Assembly (NCBI RefSeq): GCF_000022605.2
Contig: NC_013454.1
Coordinates: 434,001-498,000, forward strand
From: Blattabacterium sp. (Blattella germanica) str. Bge
GTDB lineage: Bacteria; Bacteroidota; Bacteroidia; Flavobacteriales; Blattabacteriaceae
DNA length: 64,000 nucleotides
Direction: 5' to 3'
Every line of letters begins with the position of its first letter. Within the stretch, counting starts at the first letter, position 1. The translations under genes and the position numbers were made by a program. A model generated the notes under the pieces. That model made no database searches. It saw only the letters and a list, made by a program, of their open reading frames with translations, and was not told the DNA's origin. This document shows, piece by piece, positions 5,350-9,380 of this stretch.

Positions 5350-5407
5350 GAAAATATTATTTGTATCTTGCATAAGAATGTATGGTAAACAGGATTTTAG
5401 TTTTTCT

Positions 5408-6673
5408 ATGCTTAGAACCTCTTTTATACGAAAAAATAGAGAAAAAGTTTTATTAGGATTAAAAAAACGAAACTTTAAAGAAGAGTACCTGATAGATGAG
5501 ATATTAATTTTAGATGAAAAAAAAAAAATAGCTCAAAATGTACTTAATAAAATATTAGAAAAAGAAAATTCAATATCTAAAAAGATAGGTCAAATTATAA
5601 ATTTGGGTAAAAATTTTGAAATAGAATCTTTAAAAGAAAAATCTACTTTTTTAAAAAAAGAGAAAAAAAATGTTAATGTTAAATTTAATAAAATTGTTCA
5701 AGCTTTAGAAGAAAAATTAAATCAAATTCCTAATATTCCTGATGAAAAAGTGAAAAATCATTTCGAAAAAAACGATATTCTTTTTCAAGAAGGGGAAATT
5801 CATTGTCATATTGAAAATCCTATTCCACACTGGGAATTATCCAAAAAGTTTTGTTTATTGGATTCAAATTTAGGAACAAAAATATGTGGGCCTGGTTTTT
5901 CCGTTTATATGGAAAAAGGAGCCAAATTACAAAGAAGTTTAATTAGATATTTTTTAGATAAAAATATACAAGCTTTGTATAAAGAATATAGTTTACCTTA
6001 TCTGATAAATAAAGAATCTGGATATGCTACAGGACAAATTCCAGATAAAGAAAATCAAATGTATTTCATAGAAAAAGATAATCTTTATTTAATTCCTACT
6101 GGAGAAGTTCCTATTATGAATTGTTACAGAGATAAAATATTTACATATGCAGATCTTCCTGTTAAGGCAACTACTTATACTTCTTGTTTTAGAAGAGAAG
6201 CAGGGTCTTATGGATCTAAAGTTAGGGGGTTGAATAGATTGCATCAATTTGAAAAAGTGGAAATTATTCAAATTACTACACAAGATTCTTCCTATTTTTC
6301 TTTAGAAGAAATGATTCTACATGTCAAAAATATTTTAAAATCTTTAGATTTACCCTTTCGTCTTATTCGTTTGAATGGGCCAGATCTTGGATTTTCTTCT
6401 GCTATAACTTATGATTTTGAGGTTTATTCTATAGCACAAAAAAAATGGTTAGAAGTCAGTTCCATATCTAATTGTTTAGATTTTCAATCTAATAGATTAA
6501 ATTTAAGATACAAAACAATTACAGGTAATATAAAGTCCTGTCATACTCTTAATGGAAGTGCTTTAGCTTTACCACGGATTATGGCTACCTTATTAGAAAA
6601 TCATCAAACTGAAAATCAAATCAATATACCTAAGGTATTAGTTCCTTATACTGGATTTGATCGTATCAAGTAA
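5408..6673 (+). CDS. serS: Seryl-tRNA synthetase
   Basis: Charges tRNA-Ser (and tRNA-Sec where present) with serine. It has the N-terminal coiled-coil arm (about 25-100) that grips the long variable arm of tRNA-Ser, then a class II catalytic domain with TGEVPIMN, motif 2 SCFRREAGSYG near 255-270 and motif 3 NGSALALPRI. The ATG at 5408 is chosen over 5378 because MLRTSFIRKNREKV aligns with the usual SerRS start; this gives 421 residues. metF follows after 17 nt. Confidence 0.95.
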   Translation: MLRTSFIRKNREKVLLGLKKRNFKEEYLIDEILILDEKKKIAQNVLNKILEKENSISKKIGQIINLGKNFEIESLKEKSTFLKKEKKNVNVKFNKIVQALEEKLNQIPNIPDEKVKNHFEKNDILFQEGEIHCHIENPIPHWELSKKFCLLDSNLGTKICGPGFSVYMEKGAKLQRSLIRYFLDKNIQALYKEYSLPYLINKESGYATGQIPDKENQMYFIEKDNLYLIPTGEVPIMNCYRDKIFTYADLPVKATTYTSCFRREAGSYGSKVRGLNRLHQFEKVEIIQITTQDSSYFSLEEMILHVKNILKSLDLPFRLIRLNGPDLGFSSAITYDFEVYSIAQKKWLEVSSISNCLDFQSNRLNLRYKTITGNIKSCHTLNGSALALPRIMATLLENHQTENQINIPKVLVPYTGFDRIK

Positions 6674-7658: not shown

Positions 7659-8636
7659 TTATAAGTAAAGAGTTTCTTTTATGGCATTTATTATCTTTTC
7701 TTCATTCGGATACCAAGCTTTGATTAAATTAGGAGCATAAGGAGCTGGAGTGTCTAATAAAGTAATTCTATTAATAGGGGCGTCAAGATAATCGAATGCT
7801 TTTTTTTGTATAAAAAACGAAATTTCAGAAGAAACGGATGAAAAGGGCCATGATTCTTCCAAAATAACTAGTCTGTTGGTTTTTTTCACAGAAAAAAGTA
7901 TAGATTCATAATCTAAAGGTCGTATAGTACGAATGTCTATAACTTCTACACTAATATTTTCTTTATCTAATTGATTTGCTACATTTAAAGCCATTTTCAT
8001 AATTTTTCCAAAAGAAACTAAACTGATATCAGTTCCTTCTTTTTTTATATCTGCTTTTCCAATAGGAAGAATATATTCTTCTTCTGGAATCATCATTTTA
8101 TCTCCATACATTTGTTCAGATTCCATAAAAATAACTGGATTATCATCTCTTATTGCAGATTTTAAAAGTCCTTTTGCATCATAAGGATTGCATGGAATTA
8201 CTACTTTTAATCCAGGACAACTCGCATACCAACTTTCAAAAGATTGAGAATGTGTAGCTCCTAATTGTCCAGCAGAACCAGTAGGCCCTCTGAATACGAT
8301 AGGAAGATTCCATTGTCCTCCACTCATATAACGTATTTTTGCGGCATTGTTAATGATTTGATCCATAGCTACTAAGGAAAAATTAAAAGTCATAAACTCA
8401 ATAATGGGTCTACATCCATTCATGGCAGAACCTACACCTATTCCAGAAAAACCTAATTCGGATATCGGAGTATCAATAACTCTTTTTGGTCCAAATTCCT
8501 CTAACATTCCTTTAGAGGCTTTATAAGCTCCATTGTATTGAGCGACTTCTTCTCCCATGAGATAAACAGAATAATCTCTTCTCATTTCTTCACTCATAGC
8601 TTCTGCTATAACTTCACGAAAAGTCTTTTCTTTCAT
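7659..8636 (-). CDS. pdhB: Pyruvate dehydrogenase E1 component, beta subunit
   Basis: Beta chain of the thiamine-diphosphate E1 of pyruvate dehydrogenase. The 325 residues begin TFREVIAEAMSEEM and continue with YLMGEEV (the activating Glu of the beta chain), DTPISELGFSGIGVGSAM, FRGPTGSAGQLGATHSQSFE and C-terminal APYAP, the standard PdhB layout. The alpha chain is not next to it; the gene upstream is an unrelated lipoprotein. The downstream neighbour metF converges. Pyruvate is preferred over branched-chain substrates because the separate fused E1 gene at 15311 carries branched-chain features. Confidence 0.92.
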   Translation of the reverse strand: MKEKTFREVIAEAMSEEMRRDYSVYLMGEEVAQYNGAYKASKGMLEEFGPKRVIDTPISELGFSGIGVGSAMNGCRPIIEFMTFNFSLVAMDQIINNAAKIRYMSGGQWNLPIVFRGPTGSAGQLGATHSQSFESWYASCPGLKVVIPCNPYDAKGLLKSAIRDDNPVIFMESEQMYGDKMMIPEEEYILPIGKADIKKEGTDISLVSFGKIMKMALNVANQLDKENISVEVIDIRTIRPLDYESILFSVKKTNRLVILEESWPFSSVSSEISFFIQKKAFDYLDAPINRITLLDTPAPYAPNLIKAWYPNEEKIINAIKETLYL

Positions 8637-8663: not shown

Positions 8664-9380
8664 TCAGAATATAGAAAAAAAACAACGGAAAAGAAAGAAA
8701 AATCTTTCTTTTCCGTTAAGAATAAAATATCTAGTTTTTTTTAGATTTTTCTTTTTGTTTTTTTTAAAAAATCTTCTTGTTTTTTTTGTCAAAGCCATTT
8801 TTTCATTTTTGGCCTCTGTTATTGATTTTGTCAATTTGTTCAAAAGTATATTTTTATCCTTTAGTATTTTTAATCTTTCTTTTCCTAATTTTTTTTGATC
8901 TTCAAAATCTTTTTGAGCTTCAATTTGTTCTTTTGTTCCTACTTCCTTGGATCTCATTATCTTTTTTCTTCTTATCACTTCATTCAATATTTCCTTTTGA
9001 ATTTCTACCATTTGATAATATTCATCATAATGTTTTTCAGTTTCTTTTTCTAATTTTTGAATTTTATCTCCTATTTCTTTGATTTGTACAGATAAATCTT
9101 CAGGATCTATGTATGAAGGATCATTTACAGGAGATTCAGAATTTGAAGGGGATTTGGTAGTATCAGGATTTGTTGTAGATTCTATAGTAGAATTCGGATC
9201 AGAAGAAGAAGAAGTTAGGGTGGTAGGCGGGGGGTCAGGAATAGAAGGAGTTTCTACAGTAGGAGTCTTATTTACATCAGAATCTTCTTTTCCAACTGAA
9301 GTTGCCTCATCATTGCAGGAAAAAATAAATCCTAATGCGAGAAAAATTGTTGGAATTAGAAATTTCACAGAAGTATTCAT
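8664..9380 (-). CDS. Predicted outer-membrane lipoprotein, low-complexity linker plus coiled coil
   Basis: I do not recognise a family. Residues 1-21 form a lipoprotein signal peptide ending IFSC, with lipidated Cys22. The following Asn-Asp-Glu resembles the acidic export signal that sends Flavobacteria lipoproteins to the cell surface. Residues about 40-92 are Ser/Thr/Pro-rich and disordered. About 93-205 are charged, coiled-coil-like helices. The last 40 residues are Lys/Phe-rich, and their codons run through a hairpin terminator at 8684-8717. One extra A in the A8 run at 8780-8787 would end the protein at 8764, before the hairpin, so the tail may result from a frameshift. Confidence 0.6.
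   Translation of the reverse strand: MNTSVKFLIPTIFLALGFIFSCNDEATSVGKEDSDVNKTPTVETPSIPDPPPTTLTSSSSDPNSTIESTTNPDTTKSPSNSESPVNDPSYIDPEDLSVQIKEIGDKIQKLEKETEKHYDEYYQMVEIQKEILNEVIRRKKIMRSKEVGTKEQIEAQKDFEDQKKLGKERLKILKDKNILLNKLTKSITEAKNEKMALTKKTRRFFKKNKKKNLKKTRYFILNGKERFFFLFRCFFSIF
8684..8717 (-). terminator. Rho-independent terminator of the lipoprotein gene
   Basis: Perfect 15-bp inverted repeat, AACGGAAAAGAAAGA against TCTTTCTTTTCCGTT, with a 4-nt loop. On the minus strand it is followed by GTTTTTTTTC, a proper U-tract; the plus-strand side has none. It is the clearest hairpin terminator I found, and it lies inside the reading frame of the gene it should terminate. Confidence 0.8.

Follow-up and report, generated by a model that had tools for sequence, protein, structure and literature searches.

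A terminator hairpin inside the deposited reading frame of a lipoprotein-like gene

The window analysed here is a stretch of 64,000 nucleotides, positions 434001-498000 of the larger of the two contigs of the Blattabacterium Bge genome (640,935 bases, of which the chromosome accounts for 636,850). On its minus strand lie a lipoprotein-like ORF and, downstream, a pyruvate dehydrogenase E1 beta-like gene (pdhB homologue), with a terminator hairpin situated between the two genes (Table 1). The protein has an N-terminal signal in which the residues FIFSC form a lipobox-like motif, judged by eye; no Pfam or NCBIfam model scores above cut-off on the ORF, all matches being sub-threshold. As deposited, the ORF overlaps the hairpin and its U-tract entirely before reaching the TGA, and because the U-tract thus lies upstream of the stop codon, a transcript ending in it would carry no stop codon. 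The initial annotation had described this anatomy, and on rechecking, its positions for the ORF, the hairpin, the U-tract and the A8 run at 8780-8787 all proved correct, as did the finding that the stop lies beyond a perfect 15-bp hairpin with a U-tract, where a message ended by the terminator would miss it.

Table 1. Features of the lipoprotein-like gene and its 3' surroundings (window coordinates)
Feature	Position	Strand	Description
Pyruvate dehydrogenase E1 beta-like gene (pdhB homologue)	7659..8636	-	downstream gene; transketolase pyrimidine-binding and C-terminal domains
Lipoprotein-like ORF	8664..9380	-	238 aa; TGA at 8666-8664; K/E-rich body
U8 tract	8675..8682	-	separated from the hairpin by one G (8683)
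Intrinsic terminator hairpin	8684..8717	-	stem of 15 perfect pairs closed by a 4-nt loop; covariation among relatives
Frame-2 piece QKEKSKKN plus TAG (8733-8731)	8731..8757	-	C-terminus and stop of the relatives, 13 nt before the hairpin; score 43
Second A8 run	8758..8765	-	site of the second frame change; G029 and G005, both close relatives, have A7 here
Frame-1 piece QKKQEDFLKK	8759..8788	-	homologous to the tails of relatives; score 55 (shuffle maximum 53)
First A8 run (T8 on the + strand)	8780-8787	-	six relatives have an A8 here too, in frame
Extra A, best placement (TTTG-A-CAAAAAAAA)	8789	-	precedes the first A8 run by one base; frame clash starts

The arms of the hairpin (8684-8698 and 8703-8717) form a perfect 15-bp inverted repeat, and the minus-strand RNA folds with -21.4 kcal/mol (z = -6.2), a value that 0 of 200 shuffles equalled. 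When both strands of the window were searched for perfect stems of 10 bp or longer with a T-rich tail behind them, this hairpin was the sole instance. We then aligned the stem with those of 22 of the 37 relatives that have a homologue of the gene, namely those with easily located stems; since picking clear-stem sequences favours pairing, the weight rests on paired changes and not on the pairing rate. Across the 23 aligned sequences, two-sided changes that keep the pair were seen at 9 of 14 stem pairs. These paired changes, along with the singularity of the hairpin in the window, argue that it is more than a chance structure, and we conclude that it is a real, conserved terminator: a stable hairpin, then a U-tract, with pairing kept by compensatory change. 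Its perfect stem, U8 tract and paired changes are those of an ordinary Rho-independent terminator, from which it differs in the low G+C content of the stem (5 of 15 pairs) and in being overlapped by an ORF, the latter in the window alone. The stem sequence AACGGAAAAGAAAG is also nearly identical in most of the 23 genus sequences, beyond what pairing alone would need.

Homologues in the genus stop before the terminator

The genus set comprised 49 genomes of 0.5-0.6 Mb, the window's genome included. A homologue of the lipoprotein gene is present in 37 of the 48 others (protein search and tblastn), and in 36 of these 37 the hairpin motif follows the gene on its 3' side, the exception being G038. 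In all 36 hairpin-bearing relatives the stop precedes the hairpin; the gene in the window alone stops beyond it. The C-termini of the relatives typically end in sequences such as QKKQEDFLKKQKGRAKKN (G029) or QKKQENFFNFLKKQKEGSKKN (G031), and the Phe/Lys-rich tail of the window's ORF, TRRFFKKNKKKNLKKTRYFILNGKERFFFLFRCFFSIF, was found in none of the 37 homologues compared by eye. The initial annotation had named the sharing of this tail by homologues as the observation that would speak against a frameshift, and its proposal thus withstood the comparison. Nor is run-through the default outcome of a shifted frame in the relatives, as shifted frames entered 90 nt before the hairpin pass through it in only 4 of 72 cases (36 relatives).

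This distribution bears on the idea that the gene is a regulated nonstop gene like E. coli arfA, in which a terminator inside the ORF yields a nonstop mRNA under tmRNA control (PMC10107115). The anatomy as deposited does match that precedent, and the genome has both tmRNA and SmpB, so that output could be set by trans-translation. However, the arrangement is not conserved, as every hairpin-bearing relative stops before the hairpin, and past 8790 the ORF's own frame resembles the relatives no better than the median of shuffled sequences (see below). The protein is, moreover, a lipoprotein and not a ribosome-rescue factor, and we regard regulation of this kind as scarcely credible.

The tails of the 37 homologues vary widely in length and composition, with two abrupt changes: G034 (L020) has its stop 84 nt ahead of the hairpin, and the tail of G013 (L037) is an unrelated one. 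The C-terminus of the lipoprotein thus shifts repeatedly across the genus. In the 11 of 48 relatives without a tblastn match, we inspected, at each locus, the two longest ORFs on the same strand in the slot upstream of pdhB. Three of these genomes have a diverged lipoprotein-like ORF, one has an ORF of 70 aa together with the hairpin motif, and in seven no lipoprotein-like ORF of at least 60 aa was found among the ORFs covered. At the loci L064, L065, L067, L069, L070, L072 and L073 the gene upstream of the pdhB homologue appears to be lost or unrecognisable, and a folA-like gene directly precedes pdhB in some genomes without a recognisable lipoprotein gene. The gene thus seems dispensable in the genus, and the variable tails, together with its absence or unrecognisable state in some relatives, indicate that its tail is weakly constrained.

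The tail of the relatives is split over two other frames

The tail that the relatives encode is legible in the unedited window, split over two frames other than that of the ORF. The piece in frame 1 is identical to G029 in 10 of 10 residues, and the piece in frame 2 agrees with G031 in seven of eight (by eye). We scored the region against the tails of G031, G029, G005 and G028 and compared the scores with those of 1000 approximately dinucleotide-preserving shuffles, taking the best of three frames each time (median 33, 95% point 43, 99% point 48). Frame 1 exceeded the highest shuffle score (Table 1), and its homology is clear. The score of frame 2 equals the 95% point of the shuffles and is by itself borderline; its register agrees with the DNA alignment, and its stop falls where the relatives stop. 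Frame 0, that of the ORF, scored 33 past 8790, exactly the shuffle median. The initial annotation was thus right to regard the 3' end as out of register, the tail being displaced into two other frames.

Alignment of the DNA gives two places at which the register is lost. Against G029 we obtained 95 matches in 111 columns without a gap in the window; the gaps in G029 fall at 8789, in the second A-run (A8 in the window, A7 in G029) and at the ragged edge of the stop codon, the last of which we take for an alignment edge effect. The alignments with G005 and G028 place both gaps as in G029, within one base. Both gaps also appear in G022 and G036, where additional gaps follow towards the end. In G031, an in-frame insertion separates the two places and the second gap is put at the edge, so that this relative backs the first place directly and the second solely via the reading frame. 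There are, therefore, two one-base length differences and not one, an extra A at 8789 and an A8 in place of A7 at 8758-8765, and the two extra A's lie within 32 bases.

The initial annotation had pointed to the A8 run at 8780-8787 as the abnormal site. Six of the 19 aligned relatives (G028, G012, G036, G035, G004 and G017), however, carry the identical CAAAAAAAAC in frame, and the run is therefore not itself abnormal. The alignments favour position 8789, outside this run, for the first extra base. The proposed remedy, one more A in the run, does give a stop at 8766-8764 as claimed, but in the wrong direction: the frame to which such a gain leads, read unedited, gives KKNKKIF-stop, an ending unlike that of any of the 37 homologues. 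The interpretation is thus upheld in part, with two differences in place of one, the first outside the named run and opposite in sense. A single slip as the explanation falls with the second shift at 8758-8765, which puts the whole tail beyond recovery by one slip.

Slippage on A-runs is unlikely to restore the tail

Slippage in Buchnera and Blochmannia is reportedly treated in work by Tamas et al. Frameshifts corrected by transcriptional slippage have been described in both endosymbionts (PMC3017870), and in Buchnera slippage increases with the length of the A/T run (PMC5574713). By analogy, polymerase slippage on the A8 run, as the initial annotation had suggested, would yield mixed messages, part of them encoding a properly ended protein. 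The likeness to those cases extends to an AT-rich obligate insect endosymbiont, one-base differences in A and an otherwise intact ORF. A frameshift of that kind would, however, be expected to consist of a single indel inside a homopolymer, whereas here there are two shifts and the first is best placed outside the run. The direction is also one that slippage on A-runs rarely corrects: to return to the frame of the relatives, a base would have to be dropped at the first run, and such slippage mostly inserts (in Buchnera, 151 of the 157 insertions lay in homopolymers, against 16 of the 57 deletions; PMC5574713). Even a slip in the required sense would leave the second shift in place. A slippage-corrected frameshift would be expected to be maintained in related strains or species, yet 0 of the 37 homologues shows the frame clash, hence no sign of a maintained frameshift. 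A genome-wide slippage study of Buchnera and E. coli reports no restored frame (PMC5574713). Slippage on A8 thus finds no positive support here, and we consider rescue by this route very improbable. Transcripts over the gene are unlikely to be covered by the RNA-seq of B. germanica fat body, which used poly(A) capture and recovered Blattabacterium transcripts from highly expressed genes only (PMC11050582).

Sequencing error or recent frameshift

In our judgement, the ORF most likely runs through the hairpin only because the reference sequence is flawed, and the extra bases are probably read errors. The true gene would encode the tail of the sister species, QKKQEDFLKK...QKEKSKKN, with its stop a short way upstream of the conserved terminator. 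The deposited sequence would have acquired one extra A ahead of a long A-run and another inside the next A-run, so that the reading frame would be off by one base after the first and by two after the second; the doubly shifted ORF would then pass its natural stop and read through the hairpin.

The Bge chromosome was made by 454 pyrosequencing with approximately 1.5-fold Sanger shotgun coverage (PMC2768785). Among the errors of this method, Huse et al. 2007 describe carry-forward insertions, in which the inserted base is that of a homopolymer still to come, with at most two bases in between, and, as a further main class, errors in the length of homopolymers; both classes show an enrichment for A/T (PMC2323236). 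The extra A at 8789 has the form of a carry-forward insertion as defined in that account, and the A8 at 8758-8765 that of a plain homopolymer extension or over-call. Like the errors described by Huse et al. 2007, the locus shows an A inserted one base before an A8 and an over-long A-run nearby, in a genome largely from 454 reads; unlike them, it is seen in a finished consensus and not in raw reads. The displaced pieces are, moreover, nearly identical to the relatives, which argues against long decay. This undecayed state, together with the match to the 454 error classes, favours an error in the reference, since two errors within a single A-rich stretch that is difficult to read make a more economical account than two independent real indels with no further decay. 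The initial annotation had likewise put forward a homopolymer-linked reference error, which stands as the leading cause; the site and the sense of the change were other than it supposed.

Several points count against an error. The weakly constrained tail would tolerate real indels, the assembly of the window is otherwise clean (see below), and the frame-2 piece taken singly reaches no more than the 95% point of the shuffles. If the ancestor had a Thr codon (ACA), the first extra A can sit inside the run, a placement that needs more changes but amounts to ordinary replication slippage. The genome paper rates its own pyrosequencing contigs as highly reliable (PMC2768785). The one pseudogene that it reports is that of the RNase P protein, not the lipoprotein gene. 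Among the titles listed from the Blattabacterium literature on frameshifts, pyrosequencing or homopolymers and the transcriptome, none concerned the lipoprotein gene.

The main rival is that both one-base insertions are real and recent, drift having fixed them in the Bge lineage within a weakly constrained C-terminal tail. A Phe/Lys-rich stretch without meaning would then stand in place of the last ~20 residues, transcripts ended by the terminator would lack a stop and be cleared by tmRNA and SmpB, which are at hand to handle nonstop messages, and the lipoprotein would be reduced or nearing loss. Indels in A-runs have been described as the way in which the erosion of genes begins in AT-rich endosymbionts (PMC3017870), and the variation of the homologous tails, the abrupt changes in G013 and G034, and the 11 unmatched relatives, with their seven slots devoid of a lipoprotein-like ORF, fit such a course. 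Drift, however, has to supply two insertions in such close succession while leaving the displaced frames nearly identical to the relatives, with the first best placed outside a run and the pattern coinciding with known 454 error types. We hold it to be a possible but distinctly less probable account. That the bases are real and the Bge lipoprotein is mostly nonstop, its messages ended by the terminator and tagged by tmRNA, while a few slipped transcripts give proteins that stop before the hairpin in an accidental and recent arfA-like arrangement, seems to us very improbable.

To place the locus in its surroundings, we compared the 57 ORFs of at least 100 aa in the window with G031 and G029. 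By tblastn all 57 match both genomes and none matches in split frames, in a control that is blind to short tails and missed the clash of the lipoprotein gene itself. A comparison of C-terminal ends flagged 3 of 55 pairs with G031 and 2 of 56 with G029. Two flagged ORFs were dismissed: the Gly-rich end of ORF 13414-14139 matches by eye, and ORF win-34575_140 differs from G031 only, its length agreeing with that in G029. The lipoprotein gene was thus the sole one of the 57 whose C-terminal end clashes in frame with both relatives, and a high load of errors or pseudogenes in the region was rejected, as there is no general excess. Overall the assembly is clean, a result that is as compatible with a single local error as with its absence. 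In G031, the serS homologue (L058) has a stop at residue 5 of the aligned stretch (compare window positions 5378-6673), probably just a later start codon.

Implications for the lipoprotein gene of Bge

The value of these results is mostly corrective: the C-terminus as deposited is no evidence for a Phe/Lys-rich tail, nonstop decay or polymerase slippage in this lipoprotein. The locus also serves as an example of how sister genomes can locate a probable 454 error and assign it to a type. If the bases are real, the gene would be a natural case of a terminator inside an ORF in a small genome.
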